A stretch of 32,471 nt of DNA, taken from Desulfuromonadales bacterium. Its GTDB lineage: Bacteria > Desulfobacterota > Desulfuromonadia > Desulfuromonadales > BM103. The position numbers and the translations under genes are program-made. The notes under the pieces were generated by a model, which saw nothing but the letters and a program-made list of their open reading frames with translations, was not told the DNA's origin and searched no databases. Position 1 is the first letter of the stretch. Each line of letters begins with the position of its first letter. Below are positions 5,274 to 32,382 of the stretch, in pieces. The DNA lies in assembly GCA_027065695.1 (NCBI GenBank), contig JAMONP010000051.1, positions 1-32,471 of the forward strand, given 5' to 3'.

Positions 5274-5438
5274 TAGGAGCCTATCCGACAATCCATGCTC
5301 GGCTGCAAACCCAGCTGTTTGGCCCATATTTCAGCTCCTTTTCGACCAATAGCTATGGCTATTACTCTCAAACGAGCCAAAAGCTGTTCTCAGACTTCTG
5401 GGTTTTCGCTTCGACCCTTATTGTCGGACAGGCTCCTA
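5274..5438. repeat. Long-hairpin palindromic repeat (MITE-like), copy A
   Basis: The element is about 165 bp with terminal inverted repeats TAGGAGCCTATCCGACAAT (left) and its complement with one change (right). The whole element folds into an imperfect hairpin: the arms match again around ACCCAG and meet at AATAGC-tatg-type loop bases (AATAGC/GCTATT around 5346-5362). A second copy in opposite orientation is at 10347-10510. It has no coding potential beyond chance ORFs. It lies between the Gly-rich protein gene and the lipoprotein gene, and its right terminus supplies the TAG stop of the upstream gene. Confidence 0.85.
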
Positions 5439-8506: not shown

Positions 8507-8564
8507 TTAAGGACTCCGGTTGAGAATAGATTTCCATTGGGGAAGCCTTGCGGTTTGTGCCTGG

Positions 8565-10321: not shown

Positions 10322-10346
10322 ATGTTTTGTTGCCTTCGTTAAATGC

Positions 10347-10510
10347 TAGGAGCTTGTTCGACAATAAAGGTCGAAGCGAAAATCCAGAAGTTTGAGAACA
10401 GATTTTAGCTCGTTTGAGAGTAATAGCCATAGCTATTGGTCGAAAAGGAGCTGAAATATGGACCAAACTTCTGGATTTGCAGCCGATCATGGATTGTCGG
10501 ACAAGCTCCT
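10347..10510. repeat. Long-hairpin palindromic repeat (MITE-like), copy B
   Basis: The element is about 164 bp and is the reverse complement of copy A at 5274-5438, with roughly 85-90% identity by eye. Terminal arms are GGAGCTTGTTCGACAAT and, on the other strand, GGAGCTTGTCCGACAAT. The central loop region AATAGC-CATA-GCTATT is identical in both copies. It lies in the gap between the nucleotidyltransferase gene and the PLP-enzyme gene, 26 bp from the start codon of the latter. Confidence 0.85.
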
Positions 10511-10557
10511 GGCAGAAATGAATCTTTGGATCAAATTTCATGTCCTGAAAGGGCTGG

Positions 10558-15508: not shown

Positions 15509-15589
15509 AGTTGCCCTCACCTGGTAGCCAGATCATTTATAATCCGACAGGCTGTAGGAATTTTACAACGTTGAATTGCGGATTCAGCT

Positions 15590-15751: not shown

Positions 15752-16393
15752 CTAAACAGATACACCCAGAAATTTTTGCCTGATACGTTCAATATGCTTA
15801 TTCAGTAATTCACGCCTCAAGACCCCAAGTTTCCCCTCCGAGCTCTCCAATACCGCAATTGTCTGGCCAATTTCGTCAGAAACTGATCGAACTTCCTCCT
15901 TCCAGTCGCCTTTGTCGAGGACAGCACACCACAACCTTACAGTAAGATCATAAAGGTCTTCAGAGATGTTCTTAAGAACAGGATTATTGGTACTGTCATT
16001 AAGAATTGTCCTGAATTCTCGATCAATTGCCATCAGTGCTGCCTTGTCTTTAGTTGCAAACAGATTTTCGCATTGTTTCTGCAATGTGACCAATCTCTGG
16101 AGATGTTCTTCAGATACATGTTCTGTAGCCAGTTTACCGACCATTTCTTCAATACCCAAGCGCACCTGAAACGTATTCATAACCTGTTGAAATTCCATTT
16201 CAGCAACCATGGTTCCGGTCCGAGGCAAAACCCGAACCAGGTGATCCCACTCCAGTCGATTCAGCACTTCACGTAGCGGTGTGCGGCTGACTCCAAATTC
16301 CTTTGCCAGAACTTTTTCATTTAATATACGACCAGGAGCGTAATCCAAACATAAAATCCGCCTCTTGATGGTCTGATAGATATCGTAATTCAT
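15752..16393 (-). CDS. GntR-family transcriptional regulator (FCD/FadR-VanR subgroup)
   Basis: This 213-residue protein has an N-terminal winged helix-turn-helix (about 5-65) with the GntR signature GRILNEKVLAKEFGVSRTPLREVLNRLE. A C-terminal all-helical FCD ligand domain follows, with R..IE at 78-83 and D..FR at 124-128 (DREFRTIL). FCD domains usually bind an organic or amino acid through a metal. It is the last gene after the LIV transporter and racemase on the same strand, so it probably controls uptake and breakdown of the transported compound. A candidate target is the palindrome TGGTATACCA in the amaA promoter (25192-25201). A single GGTATA half-site 60 bp upstream of its own start (16454-16459) could mediate autoregulation, but it may be chance. 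Confidence 0.85.
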   Translation of the reverse strand: MNYDIYQTIKRRILCLDYAPGRILNEKVLAKEFGVSRTPLREVLNRLEWDHLVRVLPRTGTMVAEMEFQQVMNTFQVRLGIEEMVGKLATEHVSEEHLQRLVTLQKQCENLFATKDKAALMAIDREFRTILNDSTNNPVLKNISEDLYDLTVRLWCAVLDKGDWKEEVRSVSDEIGQTIAVLESSEGKLGVLRRELLNKHIERIRQKFLGVSV

Positions 16394-16541: not shown

Positions 16542-17282
16542 TTAAACGTATCCTTGATAAGAACGTTGTTCCAGGGCCGTAAAGACATGACTAATCATCG
16601 TGTTGAAATCAAAAACTGGCAACCCGACCGCCGCTTGTATTGCATAAGCATAGGGGGGCATGTTGGAGCATTCAAGCAATATTGCCTTAATAGATGAATC
16701 ACTGGCGACTAGTTTTCTGGCTTGCCCGACAATCTCGTTCCTGGCGATATCGGTGTCCAGCACACCGGTTTCAGTTATAAAAGCACCGTAGAAGTTCTCC
16801 GTCTCCTCCATGCCTAGAACCGCCACCGTTGATTTGTCAATTCCGGCAGCATGGAAGTGTCTTTCGGTCAGATTCTGCCCTTGGGCGGTCAGGATCCCAA
16901 CCTTTTCGTCCTTACGCAACATTCTATGGATGAACGGCACCTGCAGAATGCTGGAGAGCATAACAGGCACCGGCAGAGCCTCAGCCAGTTGATCTTGAAA
17001 CAGGGCCATAAATCCACAGTCACTGGTTATTGCCCTGGCACCTTGCTGAACCAGTTCCAATCCGGCTTCAATGAACGGTTGCACCAATTCAGGATCCCGC
17101 TCAAAAATCAAGCGGTGCGAGGACGCCGCCTCAACGGTTTTGTAGATAACCGGGAAAGGGTACGACGTTGCATTTGCCACATCTCCCGGGGCAAGAGGGA
17201 GCATTGCGTCCAATAACAGAATGCCAATTGCGTGCCCTGCACTGTATTGTCCTTTTCTAGCCTGATAAATCATGTTCGCCAT
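16542..17282 (-). CDS. Asp/Glu/hydantoin racemase superfamily protein
   Basis: This 246-residue cytoplasmic protein has the two-cysteine active site of the PLP-independent racemase superfamily: ITSDCGFM (about Cys89) and LLECSNMPPYA (about Cys204). GILTAQG lies between them and FDFNTMISHVF near the end. Family members racemise aspartate, glutamate or hydantoins, or act as maleate isomerases, using the Cys pair as acid and base. It follows the LIV binding-protein gene and precedes the GntR regulator. A racemase here would let both enantiomers of an imported amino acid (for example D- and L-pipecolate or 2-aminoadipate) enter one pathway, which is inference. The SD is weak (AAAGG). Confidence 0.75.
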   Translation of the reverse strand: MANMIYQARKGQYSAGHAIGILLLDAMLPLAPGDVANATSYPFPVIYKTVEAASSHRLIFERDPELVQPFIEAGLELVQQGARAITSDCGFMALFQDQLAEALPVPVMLSSILQVPFIHRMLRKDEKVGILTAQGQNLTERHFHAAGIDKSTVAVLGMEETENFYGAFITETGVLDTDIARNEIVGQARKLVASDSSIKAILLECSNMPPYAYAIQAAVGLPVFDFNTMISHVFTALEQRSYQGYV

Positions 17283-17346: not shown

Positions 17347-18507
17347 TTATTTGTCTTTCAGAGTCTCTTTATATTTATTTGCAGAGACCGTCACAAAAGC
17401 AAATTTTTCGGAATCACCATTTTTGTCAAATGTGTACAGGGCACTATAAATGCCACCCTTTGCTTCTACGTTCTGAATCCCTTTGATGAACTCTTCGCGT
17501 GTCTTTGCACCATTTTCGATGATTTTTCTGGTCACTTGAACGGCATCATAGCCGAAGATCGCCGCATTTGGTGCCACGGGCTTACCGGTTCTCTTTTTCC
17601 ATTGATCATTTAAATACTGTGCCTGAGGTGTCGATGAGTCGATGTCATCACTGATGACCAGGTAAACATTATCGACATTACCTGCAAGCTCAAAAAATTT
17701 GGGGTCAGTTAAGGCTTCAACCCCCAGGATGGGGATATCCCAGCCCATTTCCCGTGCCTGCCGGACAATCAGGCCACCTTCATTGTAGGTCACGAACAGC
17801 ACCAGAATATCGGGCTTTTTGCTTTTGGCCCGGGTCAAGACAGACTTAAAGTCAACATCCTGGCCCGCAGTAATGACATCTTGTGAAACTACTTTAATAC
17901 CGTACTCTTTTTCAACTTCGAGTAACGTCTGGTTTAGCTGCTGACCGTAATCCTGGTTTTCTGAAATAACCGCAACGGTCTTCTTGCCCATTTCTTTGCT
18001 GACAGATTTTGCGACAGCATCAGCAATGGTTTTTGTGGTAAACGGAAGTCTTGCGATGGTATCAAATCCCTGGGCGGTGATCGAACTGGCGTTTGAGTAG
18101 GTAATTACATTCGCTATACGATACCGATAAAATACTGGGTTGGCTGCCAGGGCTGAAGAACTCATAGACGGCCCCATCACGGCCAGATAATCACCTGAAG
18201 CGACTTTCTTGGCCACGCTTGCTGCCTCACGCGCATCACCTCTGTCATCAAAAAAATCGAGCTCAAGTTTGTACCCTTTCAAAGGCCCTGCTTGAATTCC
18301 ACCCATATTGTTGATTTGTTCGATAGCAATCTCCTGGCCAATCTTATCTCCAGAACCGTAATTGCCATATTTACCCGTCACCGCATCGTACCCGGCAAGC
18401 TTAATTAGCTTACCCTTGTGATCAACACCGTCTCCAGCATGACCAATTGAGACCAGTAAAAACACACAACAAACCACTCCTGCACACATCATCGCAAACT
18501 TCCGCAT
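17347..18507 (-). CDS. LIV-type ABC transporter periplasmic amino-acid-binding protein
   Basis: This protein has 386 residues from ATG 18505-18507, which has a strong AAGGAGA seven bases upstream. The frame stays open 21 codons further up but without a signal peptide in phase. Residues 1-25 are a signal peptide (MRKFAMMC...SIGHA, cleavage before GDG). The mature protein is a type I periplasmic binding fold (Peripla_BP_6): GQEIAIEQINNMGGI, LDFFDDRGDAREAASVAKK, AVMGPSMSSSALA, SYS-like ITYSNASS, and AVISENQDYGQQ. Ligands in this family are branched-chain amino acids, polar amino acids, amides or urea. The context favours a lysine-related cyclic or acidic amino acid. It lies 153 bp after livF and belongs to the same operon. 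Confidence 0.9.
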   Translation of the reverse strand: MRKFAMMCAGVVCCVFLLVSIGHAGDGVDHKGKLIKLAGYDAVTGKYGNYGSGDKIGQEIAIEQINNMGGIQAGPLKGYKLELDFFDDRGDAREAASVAKKVASGDYLAVMGPSMSSSALAANPVFYRYRIANVITYSNASSITAQGFDTIARLPFTTKTIADAVAKSVSKEMGKKTVAVISENQDYGQQLNQTLLEVEKEYGIKVVSQDVITAGQDVDFKSVLTRAKSKKPDILVLFVTYNEGGLIVRQAREMGWDIPILGVEALTDPKFFELAGNVDNVYLVISDDIDSSTPQAQYLNDQWKKRTGKPVAPNAAIFGYDAVQVTRKIIENGAKTREEFIKGIQNVEAKGGIYSALYTFDKNGDSEKFAFVTVSANKYKETLKDK

Positions 18508-18660
18508 CGTAGATCTCCTTTTTTGATTATGAATACAACCTGTGAACATACGTTCAGCCATCTGCCACAATCATTGAATTAACCATTAACCTTTTAATCC
18601 TCTCGATTCGAGCAATATGACCACCACTAATCCCTGGTTTCAGCTTCAAACGAACAGTTA

Positions 18661-19371
18661 TTACGATACCTCGCCGAGGTAACACTTGATCACTTCCTCT
18701 GACTTCATTAGCTCCTCAGCCCGGCCATTTATTGCAACGACGCCACATTCCAGCACATAGGCCCGGTTTGCAATGGCCAACGTTTTATGGACATTCTGTT
18801 CAACCAGCAAGATAGAAGTGCCAGCTGCATTTAATTCCTGAACGATATTGTAAATTTCCTGGACCAGAATTGGCGCCAATCCCATGGCAGGTTCGTCAAG
18901 CAGCAGCAGCGATGGTCGAGACATTAAACCTCTGGCAATTGCTAACATCTGCTGTTCACCCCCGCTGAGGGTTCCGGCCCTCTGGTTGCGTCGCTCACCC
19001 AGAACCGGGAAGATATCGAAATAACGCTCAATATCTTTTTTCACTCCGGCCTTGTCCTTTCTGGTAAAAGCCCCCATTTCCAGATTTGTCATAACCGTTG
19101 CCATGGGGAACACGCGTCGCCCTTCGGGGACATGGGCCATGCCCGCAATCACAATCCGATCCGTACGTACCCCGTTCAGCGGCTTTCCCCTAAAGGTTAC
19201 ACTGCCACTGGTTGGCTTTAACATTCCCGAAATAACTTTCAAAAAGGTGCTCTTTCCAGCGCCATTTGCCCCAAGTAAGGCAACAATTTCACCTTCCTTA
19301 ATTTTCAATGAAACACCATGAAGGGCTTTGACCTTTCCATATTGAGCATGGATATCCTCGACTACTAACAT
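18661..19371 (-). CDS. livF: LIV-type ABC transporter ATPase (LivF)
   Basis: This 236-residue cytoplasmic ATPase has Walker A GANGAGKST, signature LSGGEQQ, Walker B LLLLDEPAMGLAP and the switch His region LVEQN. HVPEGRRVFP is characteristic of LivF. It pairs with LivG to energise uptake through LivH-LivM. The ATG has GGAGG seven bases upstream and overlaps the end of livG by seven bases. The symbol denotes subfamily; substrate specificity is set by the binding protein. Confidence 0.93.
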   Translation of the reverse strand: MLVVEDIHAQYGKVKALHGVSLKIKEGEIVALLGANGAGKSTFLKVISGMLKPTSGSVTFRGKPLNGVRTDRIVIAGMAHVPEGRRVFPMATVMTNLEMGAFTRKDKAGVKKDIERYFDIFPVLGERRNQRAGTLSGGEQQMLAIARGLMSRPSLLLLDEPAMGLAPILVQEIYNIVQELNAAGTSILLVEQNVHKTLAIANRAYVLECGVVAINGRAEELMKSEEVIKCYLGEVS

Positions 19372-20138
19372 CTCTCTGCCTCCTGTTCGCCGAGATAAAC
19401 CTTCTGTACTTCCAAATCATTTCTGATCTCTTCTGGAGTTCCTTCCCGAAATTTGGCCCCTGCGGTCATCACGATGATTCGGTCACTTACCGTCATCATA
19501 AAGCGCATGTTGTGCTCGATAACCACGATGGTATTTCCTTCGTTGCGCAGCTTTTTTACGAAATCGGCGAGCGTGTCCATTTCCATCGAGTTCATCCCGG
19601 CGCATGGTTCATCCAGAATCAGCAATTGCGGATCAGAAGCCAGCGCTCGACAAATTTCCAGGATACGCTGCTCGCCATACGCCAGGTTTTTCGCCAGGGT
19701 TTCTTTCTTCTCTTCAAGCCCTACATTCTTCAGTAAAGCAATAACCTTCTCGTAAGCCTGGTGCTCTATCTTCCTGGATCTCAATGGACGTAAGAAAATG
19801 TGGTGAAATGGATTGTCAATTCTACAGTGAGCACCGATCAAGACATTTTCCAAGACACTGATATTGGAAAAAACTCTTAAGTTCTGGAAGGTTCTGGAAA
19901 TTCCCTGTTTGGCAATTTTGTAAGCAGGAAGACCGGTGATTTCTTTGTCCTGGAAAAACACCTGACCACTGCTTGGCTTATAGATCCCGGTCAAAGCATT
20001 GATGAAGCTGGTTTTGCCAGCACCGTTCGGCCCAATGATTCCTAGAATCTCATTGTTATTAACGGTCATGCAGACCTGATTAACCGCAACCAAACCACCG
20101 AACCGTTTTGTCACATCTCGTGTCTCTAAAATTGGCAC
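19365..20138 (-). CDS. livG: LIV-type ABC transporter ATPase (LivG)
   Basis: This 257-residue ATPase has Walker A GPNGAGKTS, the LivG-typical FQNLRVFSNISVLENVLIG, signature LAYGEQRILEICRAL and Walker B LLILDEPCAGMNSME. The switch segment is IEHNMRFMM. The start is GTG (20136-20138) with GGGAG about eight bases upstream. It is the partner of LivF in the heterodimeric ATPase. It lies 17 bp after livM and overlaps livF, consistent with one transcript. Confidence 0.93.
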   Translation of the reverse strand: MPILETRDVTKRFGGLVAVNQVCMTVNNNEILGIIGPNGAGKTSFINALTGIYKPSSGQVFFQDKEITGLPAYKIAKQGISRTFQNLRVFSNISVLENVLIGAHCRIDNPFHHIFLRPLRSRKIEHQAYEKVIALLKNVGLEEKKETLAKNLAYGEQRILEICRALASDPQLLILDEPCAGMNSMEMDTLADFVKKLRNEGNTIVVIEHNMRFMMTVSDRIIVMTAGAKFREGTPEEIRNDLEVQKVYLGEQEAERC

Positions 20139-20155
20139 CGTTACGACTCCCGTTT

Positions 20156-21103
20156 TTAATTTTTAAAGGAAGAGGAACCAAAGATTCCCTGAGGCCGGAT
20201 AAGCAATACCAGAATCATGATGAGGCCAATAATTAACATGCGGTATTCAGCGGTACTTCGGAATACCTCAGTTGCAACTGTCATGACAGCTACGCCAGCC
20301 AGAGGCGCAAACAGATTCCGGCCCATCCCGCCGACAATGACCATAATTATCATCAGGCAGGACTCTTCCAGGCGGAAGTTAGAGGGTGTCACCGCCGTTT
20401 GATAAACGGCCAGAAAACTACCGGCCATGCCGGCATAGAGACAACCGATACTGAAGGCCATAATCTTATATATAGAGGTGTTGATTCCCATTGTGTCTGC
20501 GGCCAGTTCATCCTCTCGAATAGCGATGAATGCACGGCCGTAGCGGGTCTTTGTGATTGCTCTGAGAGTCAGGTAGGTAAAGGTGAGGATGCCAAGTCCG
20601 AGATAATAGAAGTGCGTTTCCGTAACAATCTGGAGGCCGAAGATTTTCGGGATCGGAATGCCGACGATGCCCATGGCCCCACGAGTAAATTCAATCCATG
20701 AAGTTGCCACCAGGCGAAAAATTTCCCCGAAGGCCAGAGTGATCAAACAGAAGTAATCTCCCCTGACTTTTCGTGTTGGCAGCGCAATGATGATACCGGC
20801 AATCATGGCCAAAACTGCAGAGGCACAAAATGCCGCCACAAAGCCGAAACCAAACCTTGTCATCAGAATTGCGGTTGTATAGGCTCCGATGCCGTAAAAA
20901 GCAGCATGTCCCAGCGACAGCAGGCCGGTAAAGCCGAGAATCAGATTCAATCCCATACAGAGAATCGCATAGATGATCATCAGATTAAAAATACTGAGAA
21001 TATAGATATCGGTAACGAAGGTTGGGGTCAGCAACAGGCAGATAGTCAACCCGCCAAACAACAGCCCTCTGCCCATTTTCGATTCGAAAAAACTCATGTC
21101 CAT
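20156..21103 (-). CDS. livM: LIV-type ABC transporter permease (LivM)
   Basis: This 315-residue inner-membrane permease has eight to nine hydrophobic helices. Family motifs are LNLILGFTGLLSLGHAAFYGIGAY (about 52-75), the cytoplasmic coupling loop TKTRYGRAFIAIREDELAADTMGI, and AGMAGSFLAVYQ. It is translated from ATG 21101-21103 with GGGAGA eight bases upstream; a second ATG two codons later is possible. It forms the channel with LivH. Confidence 0.93.
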   Translation of the reverse strand: MDMSFFESKMGRGLLFGGLTICLLLTPTFVTDIYILSIFNLMIIYAILCMGLNLILGFTGLLSLGHAAFYGIGAYTTAILMTRFGFGFVAAFCASAVLAMIAGIIIALPTRKVRGDYFCLITLAFGEIFRLVATSWIEFTRGAMGIVGIPIPKIFGLQIVTETHFYYLGLGILTFTYLTLRAITKTRYGRAFIAIREDELAADTMGINTSIYKIMAFSIGCLYAGMAGSFLAVYQTAVTPSNFRLEESCLMIIMVIVGGMGRNLFAPLAGVAVMTVATEVFRSTAEYRMLIIGLIMILVLLIRPQGIFGSSSFKN

Positions 21104-21167
21104 TGGTGCTTTTCTCCCTCAGGTATTGATTGTCACTTCTGTATATCCCGCTCTGGAAGTCAAAGCG

Positions 21168-22043
21168 TCAAACTTTGGTCTGGTCACTATTGCCAAGGAT
21201 CCCGGTTGGCTTGACTAACAGCATGATAATCAGAAGTGAGTACAACAGCGGATCTCGATATGAGCTGGATACGTAGACGCCAATTAAATTCTCCGAGAGG
21301 CCGAGAATCATTCCACCCAGCAACGCCCCACCCAAGCTGCCGATGCCGCCAATAACTGCCGCAGTGAAAGCAATGAGAGTTCCTCGAAAACCCATACCCA
21401 AGGAGACCGCATTATAAGCGCTCGAATAGAGGACTCCGCCAACAACACCGAGAACCCCACCCATAAAGTAGACGGAAGAAACGACTCGATTGATAGGAAT
21501 CCCCATCAAGCTCGCGGCATCCATATCCTGTGAGACGCAATCGATAGCTTTTCCATAACGGCTGTAGCGCATAAACAGGATCAGCACAGCGATACAAAGA
21601 ACCGCCACAAAGAGCGTGATGATATGGGTTACAGATACCTGCAGGCCTAATAGAGTTACAAACTTGGACTCAACAATCGATGGGAAGGACATGACCTGGT
21701 TACCCCATTGCAATTCTGAAATATTCTGGACAACGTAGGCTGCCCCCAAAGCGGTAATCATTGAAATCAGCCGATGTTGGGGCGCGCGTAATCTCCTGTA
21801 GACCAGCAACTCCACCAAAAAAGCCAAGCCACCACCAGCAATCGCTGCAATCAGGATTGCCAGCACGGGGTGAATGTTGTACTTCGCCAGCAGGGTTAAA
21901 CAGATCAGTGTGCCAAAGATATAGGTGTCTCCGTGCGCGAAGTTCATCAACTTGAGAATGCCGAAAACCATACTGTAGCCTACGGTAACTAACGCATATA
22001 CAGCGCCCACCATAACGCCGACCAATATCACTTCACCAAGCAT
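21168..22043 (-). CDS. livH: LIV-type ABC transporter permease (LivH)
   Basis: This 291-residue inner-membrane permease has about eight helices. LivH features are GAVYALVTVGYSMVFGILKLMNFAHG near the N-terminus, the coupling loop SRYGKAIDCVSQDMDAASLMGI, and GGIGSLGGALLGGM. The SD AAGGAGA lies about nine bases before the ATG. It is the first gene of the livHMGF-binding protein-racemase-gntR transcription unit. About 150 bp of noncoding sequence separates it from the terminator of the amaAB operon, and its promoter should lie there, but I could not pick a convincing one. Confidence 0.93.
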   Translation of the reverse strand: MLGEVILVGVMVGAVYALVTVGYSMVFGILKLMNFAHGDTYIFGTLICLTLLAKYNIHPVLAILIAAIAGGGLAFLVELLVYRRLRAPQHRLISMITALGAAYVVQNISELQWGNQVMSFPSIVESKFVTLLGLQVSVTHIITLFVAVLCIAVLILFMRYSRYGKAIDCVSQDMDAASLMGIPINRVVSSVYFMGGVLGVVGGVLYSSAYNAVSLGMGFRGTLIAFTAAVIGGIGSLGGALLGGMILGLSENLIGVYVSSSYRDPLLYSLLIIMLLVKPTGILGNSDQTKV

Positions 22044-22252: not shown

Positions 22253-23785
22253 TCAGATGTCGAACTTGATTCCCTGAGCCAGCGGCAGGGTCTTGCCGTA
22301 GTTAATGGTATTGGTTTGCCGGCGCATATATGCCTTCCATGCATCGGAGCCAGATTCGCGGCCGCCGCCGGTCTCTTTTTCACCACCAAAAGCGCCGCCA
22401 ATCTCGGCACCAGAGGTGCCGATATTGACGTTTGCGATACCGCAATCGGAGCCGATACAGGACAGAAATGCTTCGGCTTCCAGTAAGTTTTGGGTGAAAA
22501 CAGCAGAAGAGAGCCCCTGCACAACGCCATTGTGCAGCGCTATGGCATTGTCAATTTCACCTTGATACCTGATCAGATACAGAATCGGGGCAAAGGTTTC
22601 TTCCTGGACTATTTCGTAACTGTTCTCTGCTTCTACCACCGCCGGTATGATATAGCAGCCCGATTCGTAATCTTTTCCTTCAAGAAGATCGCCGCCATAA
22701 ATGACTTTTCCACCCTCTTCTTCAGCACGCACCAGTGCTCTTTTGAAGTCTCCGACAGCACTTTTGTCAATCAGCGGGCCAACGTGATTGTTTTCATCAA
22801 GGGGATCACCGATCTTCAGGCCACTATAAGCTTTGACAATAGTTTCTTTGACTTTGTCGTAGATCGATTCGTGAACAATAAGGCGTCGAGTTGACGTACA
22901 GCGTTGACCGGCAGTACCAACGGCACCAAAAACGATAGCGGGCAGCGCCATTTTCATGTCAGCATTGGGGGTGAGAATAATAGCGTTATTACCGCCGAGT
23001 TCGAGAATCGCTTTGCCAAATCGTCGGGCTATGACCTGAGCCCCATGACGACCTACTTCCGTGGAGCCGGTGATCGAGATTAGAGGAATCCTTTTATCGT
23101 TGAGCAGCTTTTCACCAACAGAAGACCCGCGACCGACGATGAGGTTGAACAGTCCTTCAGGAAGGTCGTTGGTTTTGATAACATCAGCCAGAATATTCTG
23201 TACGGCAATAGCCGTCAGGGGAACCTTGGATGAAGGCTTCCACAGATTAGTGTTGCCGCATACGGCTGCAATCATGGCATTCCACGACCAGACAGCTACT
23301 GGAAAATTGAAGGCGCTGATGGTGCCGACGACTCCTAAAGGGTGGTACTGGTCATACATGCGATGAAAATCACGCTCGGACGTCATGGTGTTGCCGTAAA
23401 GCTGACGGGACTGACCGACCGCAAAATCACAGATGTCGATCATTTCTTGAACTTCGCCCTTGCCTTCCTGCAGAGATTTACCCATTTCGTAGGATACAAG
23501 AGTTCCGAGAGCGTCTTTATGTTTGCGTAACTCTAGCCCGATCTGGCGGACAATCTCTCCTCGCTTGGGGGCCGGAACCATACGCCACTGCCTGAAAGCA
23601 GCGTCTGCTTTGGCAACGATATTTTCATAGTCTTGCTCTGAGGCAAGATAAACACTGGCAATCGGTTTGCCATCAACGGGGGAAACGATATTCAACTCAC
23701 CCTGGTCGGTTGTTGCATTCCACTCAATTCCAGTAGATGCACCAAGATTTTTTTCTTTAATACCAAGCTCTTTCAGAAAATCCAC
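22253..23785 (-). CDS. amaB: Aminoadipate-semialdehyde / piperideine-6-carboxylate dehydrogenase (ALDH7 family)
   Basis: This 510-residue NAD(P)-dependent aldehyde dehydrogenase has catalytic Cys296 in [12 protein letters not shown], Glu262 in [21 protein letters not shown] for cofactor binding and ITGSTEVG. The C-terminal stretch [32 protein letters not shown] is characteristic of the ALDH7/antiquitin group. That group oxidises L-2-aminoadipate semialdehyde, in equilibrium with piperideine-6-carboxylate, to L-2-aminoadipate. The start is GTG with GGAGA about eight bases upstream. It lies 42 bp after the AmaA-like oxidase, the same order as amaA-amaB in Pseudomonas putida as I recall. Family assignment is strong. 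The symbol is by analogy. Confidence 0.82.
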
Positions 23786-23827: not shown

Positions 23828-25108
23828 TTATAAACGGCGTTGCGCAAAATGGTAAAGCCGTGCGCCGGTTTCATAGAAAAGTCCACGCAGTTGCCTGGTC
23901 TTAATTTTACTTTGTTGCGTTAATGGTAAGGGGATGCACTCGGGTGATTCGGTTTGGGTATATTCGGCTAAAAGTTTACCGAATATCGTTCCCGGGCCAA
24001 TGCCTCTACCGTTGTAACTGGTTACAGTGATCATGCTTTTGTCGAGTATATGAAACCTGGGCACATTGTCGGTTGTCATTCTGATAATGCCATCCCAGGC
24101 GTGCTCCAACTCTATAGCGCCGATCTGCGGAAACACTTTTTTCACCGAGCGCAATGTCCAGTTTTTATGGAGGCTATAAGCTCCATGCCTTGCCTGCCCG
24201 ACGCTGCCAACGATAAGACGTCCCGCATTATCGAGTCGGTAAGAAGAAAGGATTAAATTGGTATCCCACGCCGGTTGCTGGCCGGGAAGTATGGTTTTAC
24301 GTACCGCTTCGGGCAACGGCGGGGTGGAAAACTGAAAGTAATTAAACGGTAGCATCGATTTTTTCTGGTCTTTAAATGCGTAGTCTGGATATCCCTGCAC
24401 GGTGAGGATAACGAACTTTGCTACGACAACACCCTTTGGTGTTTTCAACCGCCAATGATCACCATCACGCTTGCATGATATGACCGGAGAGTCGGTGTGC
24501 AGTTTTGCCCCGGCTTTTTTTGCAATTTCAGCGAGTCCATATGCATAGGCTAAAGGTTGAATTCTGCCGGCTCTTTTGTCCCACAATGCGCCATGAAACG
24601 CATTGCTGCCGATCATTGGCGCTGCTTTTTCACGACTCAGCAGAGTAACGGGAGCATTGCGCTGTTGCCACTGCTCTTCGCGTTGTTGCAAGGCCTTGTA
24701 GCCTGCCGGTGAGTGTGCACAATGGAGCGTTCCCTCACGCACAGCTTCACATTCGATGCCATGCTTATTGATAAGTTCAAACACAAGATCAGGAGAAGCA
24801 CCGAGGACTTCAAGAACGCGTTCTCCGTACTCGGGGCCCATTATTTCCACGACCTCGTCAGGCATAAGCCAAAGACCCGCATTGACCAGGCCTACATTAC
24901 GTCCGGAACCACCGTAACCGATGCTTTTTGCTTCAAGCAAGGTTACGTCAGTTCCTGCCTCTGCTAAATGCAATGCCGCTGACAGTCCGGTATAGCCGCC
25001 GCCAACAACAGCCACGTCAGTTTTATGTTCTCCTTCTACGGGAAATAGCGCCGGGTGAGGCGGGGCAGTTATTGACCACACTCCATGGCTCTCTGTCGAA
25101 TTATGCAT
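23828..25108 (-). CDS. amaA: FAD-dependent amine oxidoreductase, L-pipecolate oxidase (AmaA-like)
   Basis: This 426-residue DAO-family flavoprotein has the dinucleotide-binding motif VAVVGGGYTGLSAALHLAEAG (start near 32) and TLLEAKSIGYGGSGRNVGLVN, which contacts FAD. EGTLHCAHS and the C-terminal SYNGRGIGPGTIFGKLLAEY are further features. By memory the GRNVGLVNAG, EGTLHxAH, SYNGRG and terminal LYE.G..LYHxxQ blocks match P. putida AmaA. AmaA oxidises L-pipecolate to piperideine-6-carboxylate and passes electrons to the respiratory chain. Related gamma-glutamylputrescine oxidases remain an alternative, but the directly following ALDH7 gene favours pipecolate. It has its own promoter and operator at 25192-25244. 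Confidence 0.75.
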   Translation of the reverse strand: MHNSTESHGVWSITAPPHPALFPVEGEHKTDVAVVGGGYTGLSAALHLAEAGTDVTLLEAKSIGYGGSGRNVGLVNAGLWLMPDEVVEIMGPEYGERVLEVLGASPDLVFELINKHGIECEAVREGTLHCAHSPAGYKALQQREEQWQQRNAPVTLLSREKAAPMIGSNAFHGALWDKRAGRIQPLAYAYGLAEIAKKAGAKLHTDSPVISCKRDGDHWRLKTPKGVVVAKFVILTVQGYPDYAFKDQKKSMLPFNYFQFSTPPLPEAVRKTILPGQQPAWDTNLILSSYRLDNAGRLIVGSVGQARHGAYSLHKNWTLRSVKKVFPQIGAIELEHAWDGIIRMTTDNVPRFHILDKSMITVTSYNGRGIGPGTIFGKLLAEYTQTESPECIPLPLTQQSKIKTRQLRGLFYETGARLYHFAQRRL

Positions 25109-25416: not shown

Positions 25417-26313
25417 TCATTCCTGAAAGTTTTTCACTTCATCGAGTAACCATTTCCTGAAGCAGGTCAAGGCATTGCTGACGGGTTTGTCCTCCGGGTA
25501 GACCAGGTAGTAGGCTTCGGCAGATTTTACCGGCAGATCGAAGGCAATGACCAGTTCTTTACGCTGCAGTTCTTTGGAAATCAAAAAGCGCGGAATAAGG
25601 GCTACGCCCAGTCCGGCGCAGGCGGCGCTGATCAAAATCGAAAAATGTTCATAGCGCGAACCTTGCATGGTGTTGAAATTGGCGAGCCCTGCGCATGCAA
25701 ACCAGTTACGCCAGGCATCTGGCCGTGAAGTCAGGTGTAATAACGAACAATTCAATATTGCATCAACTGTCGTCAGCTTTGCTGTTGCAATATGGTTAGG
25801 TTTGCAAACAACAATCAGATCCTCTTTGAACAGGTAGTCTGCAACAGTGCCGGGCCAGGACGGCTGGCCAAAATGAATTGCTGCATCAAATGGTGTATCT
25901 CGAAACAAAAACATGACAGAGCGGGCCGCTGTATTGATCGTCATGTTGGGTTGTTGGTTATAAAAACTGTTAATTCGAGGGATCAACCATTGTGAACAGA
26001 ATGTCGGAAGCACTGCGAGTTCCAGGATTTCCTTTGAGCCTCCATACGCCATAATGTTGAGCATGTCCTGTTCCATTTGCTCAAGGGTTTTTCTGACCTG
26101 CTTACTGTACAGTGCTCCAGCTTTGGTTAAGATCACGCGTTTTTTCAGGCGATTGAATAGTTTGATCCCCAGTTGCTCTTCGAGGGCGGCAATCTGTTTC
26201 GAGATGGCACTTTCAGTAAGGGCCAATTCAGCGGCTGCACTGGTGAAATTCTGGTGTCTGGCTGCGGCTTCAAGAGCAATCAGGGCACTACGACTCGGAA
26301 CTGTTCTTCTCAT
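25417..26313 (-). CDS. LysR-type transcriptional regulator (GcvA-like)
   Basis: This 298-residue protein has an N-terminal winged HTH (residues about 5-65: FTSAAAELALTESAISKQIAALEEQLGIKLFNR) and a two-lobe periplasmic-binding-like effector domain (about 90-290). The sequence resembles the GcvA branch (SRSALIALEAAARHQNF; DAAIHFGQPSWPG). It is divergent from the aminomutase-pcaIJ operon across 311 bp and upstream on the same strand as amaA. It is thus well placed to activate the aminomutase operon in response to 2-aminoadipate or a related intermediate. The effector is inference. Confidence 0.9.
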   Translation of the reverse strand: MRRTVPSRSALIALEAAARHQNFTSAAAELALTESAISKQIAALEEQLGIKLFNRLKKRVILTKAGALYSKQVRKTLEQMEQDMLNIMAYGGSKEILELAVLPTFCSQWLIPRINSFYNQQPNMTINTAARSVMFLFRDTPFDAAIHFGQPSWPGTVADYLFKEDLIVVCKPNHIATAKLTTVDAILNCSLLHLTSRPDAWRNWFACAGLANFNTMQGSRYEHFSILISAACAGLGVALIPRFLISKELQRKELVIAFDLPVKSAEAYYLVYPEDKPVSNALTCFRKWLLDEVKNFQE

Positions 26314-26624: not shown

Positions 26625-28223
26625 ATGGCCGCATTGAGCGAAGCAGTTCAACCTGAATTTGGGAATAAGCCTCATCTTGTTGTTGGCTCATCAAACTTCG
26701 AGGCGATGATGAGTCGCTATCAGTTTTCTGAGGAAACCAGAAGCATCATCAATGACGAAAAGCTGCTGCCAGCCAGTTTGCTGAGTCGTTTACAGGCTGC
26801 TTATCCGCAGCATTCAGGCCTGCTGGAAACCAAGCCGTTTTTGTTCAAGGTTGGCACCAATTATTCCGGGCTCGAAGGTTTTCGGCGCGTTTGTGAAATC
26901 CTTGAAACAAACAGCATCAATCTGAGTAAAATCAAGGAACGTGAATTTTACATCGAAGTTTATCGCTTTCTGGCCACCAGCCATTCCCTGAACAGCGTCA
27001 ACTGGGACAATTATGAGACCGATTCGGTTTATCAACTGGTCTTACCCCAACCGGGGATGATCGATGCAGAGCCGACCAGGGCGTATGTTGAGGCCAATAC
27101 AGAAGCAGAAAGAGCCCGGATTGTTGCCGCATATACAGAGAAGACCAACCCCCATGATGGTAACCAGCAGCTCAACAAACCCTGGTTTGAGAATGACCAG
27201 GGTGAGGTCGAATTCCTTGAGGGCAGCCAGCATAAATATCCGCAGTGCCAGTTGATCTTCGATACCTCGACGCAGAACTGTTTTTCCTTCTGTACCTACT
27301 GTTTCCGTCATGCCCAGGTTCGCGGTGATGAAGACATGTTCCTGCAAAAAGACATCACCCAACTGCACCGCTATCTCAAAAAACATCCTGAAGTCACCGA
27401 TTTGCTGATTACCGGCGGTGATGGTGGTTTTATGCCAGCCAACCGTTTTGGCCAATATATCAAGCCGATTATTGAGGACCCGGAACTGGTGCATATTCGC
27501 ACTATCCGTCTTGGCTCACGGGCCTTGACCTTTCAGCCCGAAATGATCCTGAGTCCTAAGTACGACAAGATGCTGGAGCATTTTGATCTGCTCTATGAAA
27601 ATGGTATCCAGATGGCCTGGATGGCGCATTTTTCCACTCCACGAGAACTGTTGAACCCAAGAACCATTGCTGCAATCCGGAGGCTGAAAGCTCACGGCGT
27701 GATGGTGCGTAGTCAGAGTCCGATCATGAACCATATCAGCCTGTTCACCGACGATAGCGGTCAGGTTGATATTGACAGGTCGGCCCAGAACTGGATTGAT
27801 CTGGCCAATGTTCTGGCGATGCTGGGAGTCGGTTTTCACTCCATGTATGCGGCTCGCCCGACCGGGGAACATCACTATTTTGCCGCACCACTGGCGGATA
27901 TTGAACGGGTGTTCAGTCAGATTTACAATTCCCTTTCCTCGATTAATCGTCCGTCACGGCATATCTCAATGACGATTTCAGCGGGCAAGTTGGCCATTTT
28001 GGGAACTTCGGTTATCGACGGGGAAAAATGTTTCGCCTTGCAGTTTACTGAAGGGAGAAATATGAAATGGATGGATCGAGTCTTTCACGCCAAATATGAT
28101 GAAAAGAAGAATAAAATTGATCTGCTGCTGCCATTTGATACCGAAAAATATTTCTTTGAGGATGAACTCAAGGAGATTGAAGAAGCTCTGGCCGAAGCAT
28201 TGCGTAAACGTCTGTTGAATTGA
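26625..28223 (+). CDS. KamA-family radical SAM / PLP aminomutase, predicted 2-aminoadipate 2,3-aminomutase
   Basis: This 532-residue protein is longer than classical lysine 2,3-aminomutase (about 416) because of an N-terminal extension of over 100 residues. The radical SAM cluster motif is CX3CX2C at Cys219, Cys223 and Cys226 (NCFSFCTYCFRH). GGD (264-266) and RTIRLGSRALTF (292-303) match the KamA barrel. Lys455 in ISAGK aligns with the PLP-binding lysine (Lys337 of clostridial LAM, motif PGGGGK). Counting back without gaps, the two LAM aspartates that hold the substrate epsilon-amine (Asp293, Asp330) fall on Arg411 and Ser448. Glutamate 2,3-aminomutase has Lys and Asn there. A positive residue implies a side-chain carboxylate. 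With amaAB making 2-aminoadipate and pcaIJF downstream, 2-aminoadipate to 3-aminoadipate is the best prediction. Glutamate is the main alternative. Confidence 0.75.
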   Translation: MAALSEAVQPEFGNKPHLVVGSSNFEAMMSRYQFSEETRSIINDEKLLPASLLSRLQAAYPQHSGLLETKPFLFKVGTNYSGLEGFRRVCEILETNSINLSKIKEREFYIEVYRFLATSHSLNSVNWDNYETDSVYQLVLPQPGMIDAEPTRAYVEANTEAERARIVAAYTEKTNPHDGNQQLNKPWFENDQGEVEFLEGSQHKYPQCQLIFDTSTQNCFSFCTYCFRHAQVRGDEDMFLQKDITQLHRYLKKHPEVTDLLITGGDGGFMPANRFGQYIKPIIEDPELVHIRTIRLGSRALTFQPEMILSPKYDKMLEHFDLLYENGIQMAWMAHFSTPRELLNPRTIAAIRRLKAHGVMVRSQSPIMNHISLFTDDSGQVDIDRSAQNWIDLANVLAMLGVGFHSMYAARPTGEHHYFAAPLADIERVFSQIYNSLSSINRPSRHISMTISAGKLAILGTSVIDGEKCFALQFTEGRNMKWMDRVFHAKYDEKKNKIDLLLPFDTEKYFFEDELKEIEEALAEALRKRLLN

Positions 28224-28235
28224 CAGGGAGTGACA

Positions 28236-28946
28236 ATGATTGACAAGCGTATAGCTTCACTTGCCGAGGCGGTTGCGGACATTTTTGATGGTGCCACTGT
28301 CATGATCGGCGGTTTCGGCGAAGCTGGAAGTCCCATCGAACTGATTCACGCCCTGATCGACCAGGGAGCTGGGAATCTGACGGTTGTCAACAACAACACC
28401 GGCAGCGGCCATGTGGGTCTGGCGGCGCTGATCGAAAACGGTCAGGTACGCAAGATGATCTGTTCCTACCCGCGTACGCTCGGTTCCAAGGTCTTTCCGG
28501 AACTGTATCGTAGCGGCAAAATAAAGCTCGATCTGGTGCCGCAGGGGACTCTGGCTGAGCGGATTCGTGCTGGAGGGGCTGGTATCCCGGCCTTCTACAC
28601 CCCCACTTCAGTCGGCACTCCTTTGGCTGAGGGCAAGGAACAACGTAACTTCGCTGGTCGTGATTATGTCATGGAGCACGGCTTGAAAGCTGACTTCGCG
28701 TTGATCAAGTGCCAGCAGGCCGATTGCCATGGCAACTTGGTCTACAATAAGACTGCTCGTAACTTTGCTCCAATTATGGCGATGGCCGCCAAGACAACCA
28801 TCGTCCAGACCAATGCCCAGGTTGAGTTGGGGGCCCTTGATCCGGAAGTGGTGGTTACTCCCGGAATCTTCGTCGACCGTATTGTCACTGTTTCTGATCC
28901 TGCTCAGGAATCAAAACTGGTTGCCGAGGGGAGGCGTTATCCGTGA
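28236..28946 (+). CDS. pcaI: 3-oxoadipate CoA-transferase, subunit A (PcaI)
   Basis: This protein has 236 residues from ATG 28236-28238 with GGGAG five bases upstream; an in-frame GTG two codons earlier overlaps that site and is not chosen. It is a family I CoA-transferase alpha subunit: VMIGGFGEAGSP near 25, NNTGSGHVGLAAL, LVPQGTLAERIRAGGAGIPAFYTP and NFAPIMAMAAKTTI. The pattern closely matches PcaI rather than acetoacetate (AtoD/ScoA) subunits, as far as I can recall. With PcaJ it transfers CoA from succinyl-CoA to 3-oxoadipate. It starts 12 bp after the aminomutase stop and overlaps pcaJ by four bases. Confidence 0.82.
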   Translation: MIDKRIASLAEAVADIFDGATVMIGGFGEAGSPIELIHALIDQGAGNLTVVNNNTGSGHVGLAALIENGQVRKMICSYPRTLGSKVFPELYRSGKIKLDLVPQGTLAERIRAGGAGIPAFYTPTSVGTPLAEGKEQRNFAGRDYVMEHGLKADFALIKCQQADCHGNLVYNKTARNFAPIMAMAAKTTIVQTNAQVELGALDPEVVVTPGIFVDRIVTVSDPAQESKLVAEGRRYP

Positions 28947-29617
28947 CAACAGAAAATGCGCAGAAATTGGGTTGGAACCGCGAAGAGATGGCCAGGCGAA
29001 CTGCTCTGGATATTGCCGATGGATCCTACGTCAATCTGGGCATCGGCATCCCCGAAAAAGTGGCCCAATATGTTCCCGTTGGCCGTGAAGTGATCTATCA
29101 TACCGAAAACGGTCTGCTCGGTATGGGCCCCGCGCCAATAGCAGGTCAGGAAGATCCTGAACTGATCAACGCTGGTAAAAAAGCGGTTACGGCTCTGCCC
29201 GGTGCATCCTTCTTTCACCATGCTGACAGCTTCGCCATGATTCGTGGCCAACATATCGATATCTGTGTGCTGGGGGCGATGCAAATATCCGAACAGGGTG
29301 ATCTGGCCAACTGGTCGACCGGTGAGCCTGATGCTATCCCCGCAGTGGGTGGGGCCATGGATCTGGTTGCCGGGGTAAAAACTATCTATGTTATTACTCA
29401 GCACTGTACCAAAGATGGCACCCCAAAGCTGGTGGAGTCCTGCAGTTACCCACTGACAGGCAGAGCAGTAGTCAGTCGCGTCTACAGTGACCTGGCGGTC
29501 ATCGATGTCACCCCGGAGGGTTTTCAGGTTGTTGAACTGGCCCCGGGGGTCAGCTTCGATTACCTCCGGCAGAGAACTGCTGGCAAGTTACAGGCTGGTC
29601 GGCAAAAAGGCAGTTGA
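28943..29617 (+). CDS. pcaJ: 3-oxoadipate CoA-transferase, subunit B (PcaJ)
   Basis: This 224-residue protein starts at GTG 28943-28945, which overlaps the pcaI stop (GTGA), with GAGGGGAGG upstream. The catalytic glutamate is Glu55 in HTENGLLGMGP, which forms the glutamyl-CoA thioester. YVNLGIGIPEKVA, SFFHHADSFAMIRG, DLANWSTGE..AIPAVGGAMDL and CSYPLTGRAVVSRVYSDLAV match PcaJ. Together with PcaI it makes 3-oxoadipyl-CoA. No aromatic ring-cleavage genes are present in the window, so its substrate probably comes from the neighbouring aminotransferase and not from protocatechuate. Confidence 0.82.
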   Translation: MTTENAQKLGWNREEMARRTALDIADGSYVNLGIGIPEKVAQYVPVGREVIYHTENGLLGMGPAPIAGQEDPELINAGKKAVTALPGASFFHHADSFAMIRGQHIDICVLGAMQISEQGDLANWSTGEPDAIPAVGGAMDLVAGVKTIYVITQHCTKDGTPKLVESCSYPLTGRAVVSRVYSDLAVIDVTPEGFQVVELAPGVSFDYLRQRTAGKLQAGRQKGS

Positions 29618-29672: not shown

Positions 29673-31010
29673 ATGAAACACCAGCAGACTGCGCTGCCAA
29701 CCGAATGCTCTCGAAGTGCCAAACTCTTTCAACGTGGGTGCAAGGTTATGCCGGGTGGTGTTAGTCGCAACACCGTACTGCGCTCACCGCATCCTCTTTA
29801 TGCCAAACAGGGTGCAGGCTGTTATGTCACTGATATTGAAGGGGTACAGCGGATCGATTTTGCCAATAACATGGCCTCGCTGATTCATGGTCATGCTCAT
29901 CCCGAGATTGTCGCGGCGGTTAGCGCACAGTTGCAAAAAGGCACCGCATTCACATTGGCGACCGAGGCAGAAGTGTCCTATGCCGAACATTTGTGTGGTC
30001 GTAGCAGCAGCTTCGAGAAAATCCGTTTTGTCAACTCCGGCACTGAAGCGGTGATGAGTTGTCTGAAAGCCGCCCGCGCCTACACAGGTCGCCCCAAGAT
30101 TGCCAAGGTGGAAGGCGCTTATCATGGTCTTTACGATTATGCTGAGGTCAGTCAGACTGCTAGCCCGTCAAACTGGGGGAACGTAGAAAGCCCCGCCAGT
30201 GTACCAGTGGCTTATGGGACTCCTGCTTCTGCCTTGAGTGACGTTATTATTATCCCCTTCAATGATCCCGAACGGGCGCTAGAGATTCTGGATCGGCACG
30301 CGACTGAACTGGCTTGTGTAATGATTGATCTGCTGCCACACCGGGTCGGTTTGATCCCAGCGTCGCTTGACTTTATGCAGGCCCTTTATCAATGGACCCG
30401 TAATAATCACGCCCTGCTGGTCTGCGATGAAGTCATCACTTTTCGTTCCAATTACGGCGGTGCCCAAGAATGGTACGGGGTGAGCCCGGATCTGACCGCC
30501 ATGGGTAAAATGATCGGCGGCGGTTTTCCGGTTGGTGCCCTGGCTGGGCGTAAAGAGGTGATGGAGGTGATGAATCCTCTGGCCGACAAAGTTCTTTTTC
30601 CCCATTCGGGGACTTTCTCCGCCAATCCCATTACCATGACCGCCGGACTGGTGGCGATGGAACTCTTTGATCAAGCCGCAGTTGAACAAATCAATACTTT
30701 GGCCGAGCGAGCCCGTGAGCAGATTTCCGAAGCGATCAGAATTGCAGATATTCCGGCTTGTGTCACCGGTGGTGGCTCGATGTTCCGCGTGCATATGAAA
30801 CCGGTCGCACCCAAAAATTACCGTGAAGCTTTTATGGATGAAGAAGAAACTCAGCTGATCAAGGGGCTGCTTGATCACCTCTTCGATAACGGACTGATGA
30901 TGATCAATACCTGCTCCGGCGTTCTCTCTACGCCGATGACCGGGAAGGAAATAGACCGCCTCACAGAAGTTATGCTGAGTGGTTTCCGTAAGCTAAAAAA
31001 AATGCTATAA
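29673..31010 (+). CDS. Class III PLP aminotransferase (GSA-aminomutase-like), predicted 3-aminoadipate aminotransferase
   Basis: This 445-residue fold-type-I enzyme of the class III/glutamate-1-semialdehyde-aminomutase-like group has PMPGG-like VMPGGVSRNTVL at the N-terminus and NNMASLIHGHAHP. Other motifs are NSGTEAVMSCLKAARA (121-136), PLP-ring Asp252 in VCDEVITFR and the Schiff-base Lys279 in AMGKMIGGGFPVGALAG. This group includes beta-amino-acid aminotransferases, for example beta-phenylalanine aminotransferase. It is the expected chemistry for turning 3-aminoadipate into 3-oxoadipate between the aminomutase and PcaIJ. True hemL is unlikely because of the catabolic context. It lies 55 bp after pcaJ. 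Confidence 0.75.
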   Translation: MKHQQTALPTECSRSAKLFQRGCKVMPGGVSRNTVLRSPHPLYAKQGAGCYVTDIEGVQRIDFANNMASLIHGHAHPEIVAAVSAQLQKGTAFTLATEAEVSYAEHLCGRSSSFEKIRFVNSGTEAVMSCLKAARAYTGRPKIAKVEGAYHGLYDYAEVSQTASPSNWGNVESPASVPVAYGTPASALSDVIIIPFNDPERALEILDRHATELACVMIDLLPHRVGLIPASLDFMQALYQWTRNNHALLVCDEVITFRSNYGGAQEWYGVSPDLTAMGKMIGGGFPVGALAGRKEVMEVMNPLADKVLFPHSGTFSANPITMTAGLVAMELFDQAAVEQINTLAERAREQISEAIRIADIPACVTGGGSMFRVHMKPVAPKNYREAFMDEEETQLIKGLLDHLFDNGLMMINTCSGVLSTPMTGKEIDRLTEVMLSGFRKLKKML

Positions 31011-31182: not shown

Positions 31183-32382
31183 ATGAATGAAGTATTTATT
31201 TGCGATGCGATCCGTACGCCGATCGGATGTTATGGTGGTTCTCTTTCTGCAGTTCGCACAGATGACCTGGCGGTTGTCCCGCTTAAAGCGTTGATGGCAC
31301 GTAACCCTGAAGTTGACTGGCAAGCGGTAGATGATGTCATCCTCGGTTGTGCCAATCAGGCCGGTGAAGATAACCGCAATGTGGCACGTATGGCCTTGTT
31401 ACTGGCAGGCTTGCCCAAAGAAGTGACTGGCAGCACGCTCAATCGCCTCTGCGGTTCCGGTATGAACGCTGTCGGTAGTGCTGCTCAAGCGATCAAGGCC
31501 GGGGATGCCGAGTTGATGATTGCCGGTGGGGTGGAAAGTATGTCCCGTGCCCCTTTTGTTATGGGCAAGGCGACCGCTGCCTTTTCACGCACCGCCGAAA
31601 TCTTTGATACCACCATCGGCTGGCGTTTTGTCAACCCACAACTGAATGCCCTTTATGGTACTGATTCGATGCCGGAAACTGCTGAAAACCTGGCTCGCGA
31701 ATTCAGTATCAGCCGGGAGGATCAGGACCGCTTCGCACTCTGGAGTCAACTTAAAGCGGCGGCGGCTCAGGAGGACGGTCGACTGGCCGAAGAAATCGTT
31801 GCGGTAAGTGTCCCCCAGCGAAAAAGAGATCCTTTAATCGTTGAGAAAGATGAACATCCTCGAGCCAGTTCTCTGGAAAAATTGACTAAACTCAGGACGA
31901 TGTTCCCTGAAGGGGCGATTACTGCGGGTAATGCCTCGGGGATCAATGACGGGGCGGCGGCCTTGCTGCTCGCAACCGAACCGGCGGCTACACGGCATGG
32001 ACTTACGCCCAAGGCGCGAGTGCTCGGTATGGCTACCGCCGGGGTGCCACCGCGCATTATGGGAATAGGACCGGTACCGGCGACGAACAAGTTGCTTGAA
32101 CGCCTGGGACTGACCCTGAATGATTTTGACATTCTCGAGTTTAACGAAGCCTTTGCCGTGCAGTCACTGGCCTGTACCCGGCAACTCGGCCTGGCTGATG
32201 ACGACCCGCGGATCAATCAGCAGGGTGGAGCAATCGCCCTGGGGCATCCGCTGGGAATGAGTGGTGCCCGCCTGATAACGACAGCCCTCTATCAACTTCA
32301 TCGAACTGGTGGGAAGCGGGCACTCTGTACCATGTGCATCGGTGTGGGCCAGGGGATCGCGCTGGTCATAGAGCGGGTTTAA
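31183..32382 (+). CDS. pcaF: 3-oxoadipyl-CoA thiolase (PcaF)
   Basis: This 399-residue thiolase has active-site Cys90 (LNRLCGSGMNAVG), His355 (GGAIALGHPLGMSGAR) and Cys385 (TMCIGVGQG). The blocks GCANQAGEDNRNVARMALLL and DTTIGWRFVNP are hallmarks of PcaF/PaaJ-type beta-ketoadipyl-CoA thiolases and differ from acetoacetyl-CoA thiolases. It cleaves 3-oxoadipyl-CoA with CoA to succinyl-CoA and acetyl-CoA. The ATG has GAGGTG six bases upstream. It is separated from the aminotransferase by a 130-bp repeat but is on the same strand and completes the predicted pathway. The remaining 89 bp of the window downstream show no gene. Confidence 0.88.
   Translation: MNEVFICDAIRTPIGCYGGSLSAVRTDDLAVVPLKALMARNPEVDWQAVDDVILGCANQAGEDNRNVARMALLLAGLPKEVTGSTLNRLCGSGMNAVGSAAQAIKAGDAELMIAGGVESMSRAPFVMGKATAAFSRTAEIFDTTIGWRFVNPQLNALYGTDSMPETAENLAREFSISREDQDRFALWSQLKAAAAQEDGRLAEEIVAVSVPQRKRDPLIVEKDEHPRASSLEKLTKLRTMFPEGAITAGNASGINDGAAALLLATEPAATRHGLTPKARVLGMATAGVPPRIMGIGPVPATNKLLERLGLTLNDFDILEFNEAFAVQSLACTRQLGLADDDPRINQQGGAIALGHPLGMSGARLITTALYQLHRTGGKRALCTMCIGVGQGIALVIERV

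Follow-up and report, generated by a model that had tools for sequence, protein, structure and literature searches.

The closest described enzyme is lysine 2,3-aminomutase (LAM; AblA/KamA), with a solved structure from Clostridium subterminale (PDB 2a5h). LAM cleaves S-adenosylmethionine (SAM), binds its substrate as a pyridoxal phosphate (PLP) aldimine and shifts the amino group through an azacyclopropyl radical. Its Arg134 presumably binds the substrate carboxylate, and Asp293 and Asp330 are taken here to be the residues that bind the lysine amine. In glutamate 2,3-aminomutase (GAM; TIGR04368), Lys332 and Asn369 are presumed to be the counterparts of these two aspartates, according to an earlier note on this DNA. 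Regarding lysine breakdown, eleven routes are known according to PMC5653290 (2017), and nearly all of them terminate at glutaryl-CoA. The pipecolate routes of Pseudomonas putida (AmaA/AmaB) and Phaeobacter inhibens lead from pipecolate to 2-aminoadipate, as is also proposed here. In lysine fermentation, the HemL-like class III beta-transaminase Kat acts on a beta-amino acyl-CoA, according to PMC3149608.

The window, i.e., the whole 32,471-nucleotide stretch of Desulfuromonadales DNA analysed here, encodes a protein related to LAM, with the following features:

26625..28223, + strand: KamX (name coined here), a KamA-fold radical SAM/PLP protein of 532 aa, proposed L-2-aminoadipate 2,3-aminomutase
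27279..27302, + strand: codons of the CxxxCxxC [4Fe-4S]/SAM motif (C219-F-S-F-C223-T-Y-C226)
27855..27857, + strand: codon of Arg411, which takes the position of LAM Asp293 (alignments, conservation)
27966..27968, + strand: codon of Ser448, which takes the position of LAM Asp330 (alignments, conservation)
27987..27989, + strand: codon of Lys455, which takes the position of the LAM PLP lysine Lys337 (alignments, conservation)

The gene is a single uninterrupted frame from the ATG at 26625 to the stop codon at 28223, with a ribosome-binding-like AGGAG immediately 5' of the ATG. The cluster motif CFSFCTYC and the PLP-lysine motif TISAGK (T450-I-S-A-G-K455) described in the earlier note were both present in the protein. 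KamX and LAM have in common the fold, the CxxxCxxC motif, Arg134 and the PLP lysine. In contrast, Asp293/Asp330 are replaced by Arg/Ser and PGGGGK by TISAGK, the N-terminus of KamX is longer and the identity is 17%. The same note had put this N-terminal extension at more than 100 residues; an extension was found, but its length is about 65 to 95 residues, since the first cluster cysteine lies at position 219 in KamX versus 125 in LAM. The structural alignment with LAM begins at residue 68 of the KamX model.

An AlphaFold2 model built with 30 relatives (mean pLDDT 87.3, pTM 0.89) matched LAM 2a5h with a Z score of 28.6 (3.0 Å over 322 residues, model residues 68–481, 17% identity). The second-best solved structure reached a Z score of 11.8, and nothing besides LAM stood out. 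Likewise, LAM 2a5h was the sole match up to E 0.1 in a PDB sequence search (E 1.3e-10). The predicted fold of KamX is that of a KamA-type radical SAM aminomutase, with the CxxxCxxC motif and the PLP lysine aligned to the LAM positions. The best NCBIfam score, for the KamA family (TIGR00238), was 63.6 bits and below the cut-off of 199.2, and the scores for lysine 2,3-aminomutase (TIGR03820, 58 bits; cut-off 525.4), GAM (53.7 bits; cut-off 650), arginine 2,3-aminomutase (TIGR04468, 59.8 bits; cut-off 600) and EpmB (TIGR03821, 42.6 bits; cut-off 369.3) were also below the respective cut-offs. No Pfam family was detected in KamX at E ≤ 0.001, KamX was absent from the PF04055 list of radical SAM proteins in the window's own genome, and PADLOC gave no match.

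In phylogenetic trees, the 23 rows of the KamX clade were set apart from all others by a branch supported at 100/100, in agreement with the separate clade that had been claimed. The trees took in LAM, GAM-like sequences and two further groups, and one of them also included EpmB, which lay apart from KamX, and two other KamA-like proteins of the same genome; arginine 2,3-aminomutase was absent from the trees. Because the trees warned of joined long branches and two groups shifted, only the KamX clade, and not the deep order of clades, was used. A sister clade of approximately 434–472 aa (L068–L070 and L110–L112), of which L068–L070 grouped with KamX at 100/99 with 31%–32% identity, had Arg at the place of residue 411 in all six members compared and Ser (four) or Val (two) at that of residue 448. 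The sister clade thus shares the Arg with KamX but has a shorter N-terminus and other neighbours. Phage relatives were distant, with 25% identity in the five listed of nine records.

Several members of these outlying groups showed features of their own. The sister-clade proteins on plasmids (L110:7881-9260, L111:7833-9137 and L112:7866-9182) are annotated as lysine 2,3-aminomutase and carry the Arg; L110 and L111 adjoin NRPS genes, L112 adjoins other biosynthetic genes, and all three are probably not lysine enzymes. Partial texts on cystobactamid and on the phaseolotoxin region, consulted for related enzymes, contained nothing bearing on KamX. In L090 (9663-11081 and 11426-13128), a sister-clade KamA-like protein with the same Arg/Ser pocket adjoins cmoB and cmoA, the genes of tRNA uridine-5-oxyacetate synthesis. 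A further KamA-like group (L071–L076; 373–524 aa as called) had CRPT at the place of Asp293 and a one-residue gap at that of Asp330. Among the GAM-like sequences, that at L078:1486-4101 (- strand) is in one frame with an N-terminal part of approximately 440 aa that appeared ATP-grasp-like by eye, and a protein resembling this part is encoded next to a GAM-like sequence at L096:7759-10707.

A MAFFT L-INS-i alignment of 51 KamX-clade members with LAM, GAM-like and other sequences placed Arg411 on Asp293, Ser448 on Asp330 and Lys455 on Lys337 of PDB chain 2a5h, as well as Arg228 on LAM Arg134 and C219/223/226 on C125/129/132. An independent profile–profile alignment of KamX and LAM gave the identical register (100% probability, 320 columns). 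The assignment of Arg411 and Ser448 to the two aspartate positions, originally made from an ungapped count, was thereby reproduced by both methods, leaving KamX with no acidic residue at either place. Across 69 loci, Arg411 and Lys455 were kept in all 69 and position 448 was Ser in 52 and Thr in 17; Arg228 and the three cluster cysteines were invariant in 68 of 68, the remaining locus being too short. These loci represent 58 distinct ones (the window, 56 relatives and L104) and eleven repeats, ten of which were shown to be duplicates, and the eleventh, L109, is part of the L055 contig. Elsewhere, the two positions were Asp/Asp in ten LAM-type rows, Asp/Glu in Escherichia coli EpmB and Lys/Thr in two near-GAM sequences, L077 (632 bits) and L078 (608 bits; GAM cut-off 650).

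Changes in the same sense at both positions in two separate lineages, KamX and near-GAM, argue for a side-chain carboxylate, and the KamX pocket, as judged from the alignments, is predicted to suit a substrate of this kind. These residues also bear on whether KamX could act on lysine, as a 2,3-aminomutase whose pocket is atypical. The LAM fold common to both (Z 28.6) and the annotation of the distant plasmid relatives would be in line with such an activity; however, both acidic residues that presumably bind the amine are replaced, one of them by an invariant Arg, the score of 58 bits compares with a cut-off of 525.4, and the downstream steps described below do not suit beta-lysine. The pocket and the neighbours together led us to rule out lysine as the substrate, the residual probability being close to negligible.

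An Arg and Ser pocket would suit glutamate as well. As a glutamate 2,3-aminomutase, KamX would form 3-aminoglutarate (beta-glutamate), as an osmolyte or for breakdown, and L077 and L078, which are near-GAM sequences, likewise combine a basic and a small polar residue at the two places. A review (PMC11284099) presents the radical SAM enzyme IdnL4 as probably serving incednine biosynthesis as a glutamate 2,3-aminomutase, with no in vitro activity seen yet. Against glutamate stand the 53.7 bits of KamX relative to the GAM cut-off of 650, its separate branch and the occurrence of PcaF and AmaB among the neighbouring genes, which are as follows:

28230..28946, + strand: 3-oxoacid CoA-transferase subunit A (TIGR02429, 351.5 bits; cut-off 128.5)
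28943..29617, + strand: 3-oxoacid CoA-transferase subunit B (TIGR02428, 296.3 bits; cut-off 243.55)
29673..31010, + strand: HemL-like class III aminotransferase (PF00202), proposed 3-aminoadipate transaminase
31183..32382, + strand: PcaF, 3-oxoadipyl-CoA thiolase (TIGR02430, 690 bits, above the cut-off of 597)
25417..26313, - strand: divergent LysR-type regulator
23828..25108, - strand: AmaA-like FAD oxidoreductase, proposed L-pipecolate oxidase (NF050086, 458.6 bits, below the cut-off of 600)
22253..23785, - strand: AmaB, L-piperidine-6-carboxylate / 2-aminoadipate semialdehyde dehydrogenase (NF050084, 807.6 bits, above the cut-off of 730)
17347..22043, - strand: branched-chain-amino-acid-type ABC transporter, with two permeases (PF02653 twice), two ATPases (PF00005 twice) and a binding protein
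16542..17282, - strand: Asp/Glu/hydantoin racemase-family protein (PF01177, NF005679)
15752..16393, - strand: GntR-family regulator (PF00392, PF07729)
14669-15520: diaminopimelate epimerase (PF01678)

The NF050086 score of the AmaA-like protein, though below the cut-off, was far above that of the next family. The CoA-transferase families TIGR02429 and TIGR02428 do not separate 3-oxoadipate from acetoacetate. The aminotransferase was below every cut-off among the 25 NCBIfam families listed of the 67 matched; its PDB relatives include the beta-transaminases 2yku and 6iz9 and the beta-phenylalanine aminotransferase 4ao9, but other solved relatives (6k8h, ForI and HemL) scored higher. From its position, the ABC transporter is possibly the importer of the substrate, and the racemase-family protein possibly acts on pipecolate or lysine. 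In the window's genome, PcaF was found over its cut-off once and PcaD not at all, with four weak matches; an aromatic (protocatechuate) source of 3-oxoadipate was considered for this genome and found to be unsupported, given the lack of PcaD over the cut-off.

The context of PcaF and AmaB, on which the earlier note did not draw, fits a C6 rather than a C5 acid, which favours 2-aminoadipate over glutamate as the substrate. 2-Aminoadipate matches lysine in chain length and carries a carboxylate at C6. We therefore propose, with a probability of roughly 0.78, that KamX is a radical SAM, PLP-dependent L-2-aminoadipate 2,3-aminomutase, a prediction made from sequence comparison and gene context.

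A contig scan yielded 56 relatives of KamX in several phyla. Going by record titles, they come from Desulfuromonadales, other Deltaproteobacteria, Gammaproteobacteria, Alphaproteobacteria, Acidobacteria, Bacteroidetes, Ignavibacterium, Melioribacteraceae, Planctomycetes, Sumerlaeaceae, Eisenbacteria and one Actinobacteria bin. On the same strand and within 7 kb downstream of KamX, CatA was present at 40 of 51 loci, CatB at 35 of 46, the aminotransferase at 35 of 44 and the thiolase at 26 of 42, and all four at 26 of 42, where the denominators include only loci with enough sequence. The order of CoA-transferase A/B, class III aminotransferase and PcaF thiolase after KamX recurred in distant phyla. 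All 19 thiolases tested (one from the window, the others from 18 of the 31 relatives with a thiolase) matched pcaF at E ≤ 1e-180; this set excluded the thiolase of L043, which lies on the opposite strand and is just 52% identical. Loci without adjoining downstream genes were mostly those of Colwellia, with a few others. The aminotransferase and thiolase of L026 and L030 were located approximately 6.5–9 kb further on and on the opposite strand, the aminotransferase of L038 precedes KamX, and L041 has the order KamX, aminotransferase, AmaB and a saccharopine-dehydrogenase-like gene. In a Desulfuromonadales bin (L055:5063-6765), KamX is split over two frames with the neighbour order intact, reflecting either an assembly error or decay.

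The link to 2-aminoadipate was further examined through the distribution of AmaB. Among 277 genomes of the window's class, KamX was found in 13, AmaB in 28 and both in 12 (Fisher p 1.1e-12, with genomes treated as independent, which they are not). The 13th KamX genome (locus L014), 71% complete, has KamX on a contig that starts inside an AmaB gene. At the search thresholds, neither gene was found in the ten remaining genomes of the window's genus. This distribution is consistent with a KamX–AmaB island gained or lost as a unit. Within 11 kb of KamX, AmaB was encoded at 8 of the 56 loci, a saccharopine-dehydrogenase-like protein at five and AmaA at none, many of these stretches being short.

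At E ≤ 1e-150, AmaB was detected in 25 of 50 carrier genomes; it was not found in the other 25, which included all nine Colwellia and L014, whose AmaB gene is cut by the contig end. The carriers without AmaB may use another dehydrogenase, may be incomplete or may use KamX on another acid. This absence from half of the carriers counts against the universality of the 2-aminoadipate link and is the main gap in the argument; it also favours glutamate, which we nevertheless regard as an improbable substrate. Regarding genes that might feed AmaB, a saccharopine-dehydrogenase-family gene was present within 7 kb on the AmaB contig in 8 of the 25 AmaB-bearing carriers, and lysine 6-aminotransferase adjoined AmaB in two. 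Only genes on the AmaB contig were counted because proteins with the Pfam domain Sacchrp_dh_C, found in 36 of 50 carriers, are of several kinds. The saccharopine-dehydrogenase-like protein of L011 had no match in the window's genome, in a search run without a control genome. Lysine 6-aminotransferase was considered as an explanation of the AmaB-less carriers, but it fails for most of them, since it occurred in only 4 of 50 carriers, just one of which (G280) was without AmaB.

From the gene identities, gene order, residues and co-occurrence observed, we infer the following scheme for 2-aminoadipate as the substrate. In the window's genome, 2-aminoadipate would arise from L-pipecolate through AmaA and AmaB, via 2-aminoadipate semialdehyde. 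The scheme also allows L-lysine as the source of the semialdehyde, and in some other genomes, saccharopine-dehydrogenase-like or lysine 6-aminotransferase genes would feed AmaB. As in LAM, the [4Fe-4S] cluster of KamX would cleave SAM to a 5'-deoxyadenosyl radical, with the substrate held as a PLP aldimine and Lys455 holding PLP when the site is empty. The amino group would then shift from C2 to C3 via an azacyclopropyl radical to give 3-aminoadipate. Arg411 and Ser448 would hold the C6 carboxylate where the two aspartates of LAM hold the C6 ammonium of lysine, i.e., a charge swap with the chain length unchanged. From 3-aminoadipate, the class III aminotransferase would produce 3-oxoadipate, and the CoA-transferase would form 3-oxoadipyl-CoA with CoA from succinyl-CoA, the donor in the PcaIJ reaction. 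Finally, PcaF would yield succinyl-CoA and acetyl-CoA.

Because aminomutases, transaminases, CoA-transferases and thiolases are reversible, the same genes could in principle run from succinyl-CoA and acetyl-CoA to 2-aminoadipate and hence to lysine precursors. However, AmaB oxidation is one-way in practice, AmaA, AmaB and the transporter point to breakdown, and the diaminopimelate epimerase gene (14669-15520) suggests the usual lysine route, making the reverse direction very improbable. The breakdown scheme probably represents a lysine and pipecolate route of several phyla, in which KamX and transamination lead into the lower beta-ketoadipate pathway and the six carbons end as succinyl-CoA and acetyl-CoA, passing beyond 2-aminoadipate without 2-oxoadipate, glutaryl-CoA, decarboxylation or a need for oxygen. 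In contrast to the routes covered in PMC5653290, 2-aminoadipate here would bypass both 2-oxoadipate and glutaryl-CoA. Lysine fermentation with Kat, as presented in PMC3149608, likewise begins with a 2,3-aminomutase and later uses a HemL-like enzyme, a CoA-transferase and a thiolase, but starts from lysine and depends on a 5,6-aminomutase as well as on Kce, a cleavage enzyme; moreover, Kat acts on a CoA ester, whereas transamination would precede CoA transfer in the KamX scheme.

No paper on an aminoadipate aminomutase or a 3-aminoadipate route was found in a library of open-licence literature, although one may be in print elsewhere; the proposed route seems to be undescribed. In the portions available of two further papers, 3-aminoadipate was named only within a title in the reference list (PMC9854754) and nothing on the proposed route appeared (PMC9309667). 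A 3-aminoadipate name also turned up in a paper on meteorite amino acids. The clade, the predicted substrate and the predicted pathway are new here, whereas the LAM fold and presumably the LAM mechanism are known. If correct, our reading would add a new substrate for radical SAM aminomutases, reached by a clean switch through a charge swap at two known positions. For sediment Desulfuromonadales, marine gammaproteobacteria and other carriers, it would also provide an entry of lysine and pipecolate carbon into the beta-ketoadipate pathway, and it would correct the annotation of a protein that the Pfam and NCBIfam models all miss.

A separate part of the window (7169-11460) contains four - strand genes, which encode a 445-aa protein that matched no Pfam (E ≤ 1e-6) or NCBIfam family, a CDP-alcohol phosphatidyltransferase near archaetidylserine synthase, a CobD/HisC-like PLP enzyme and a sugar-1-phosphate-type nucleotidyltransferase. 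The region has the appearance of a locus that makes an unusual phospholipid head group. An inverted repeat (5275-5438 / 10347-10510; 164-nt arms, 91% complementary, 4.9 kb apart) encloses three of the four genes, wholly or for the most part.
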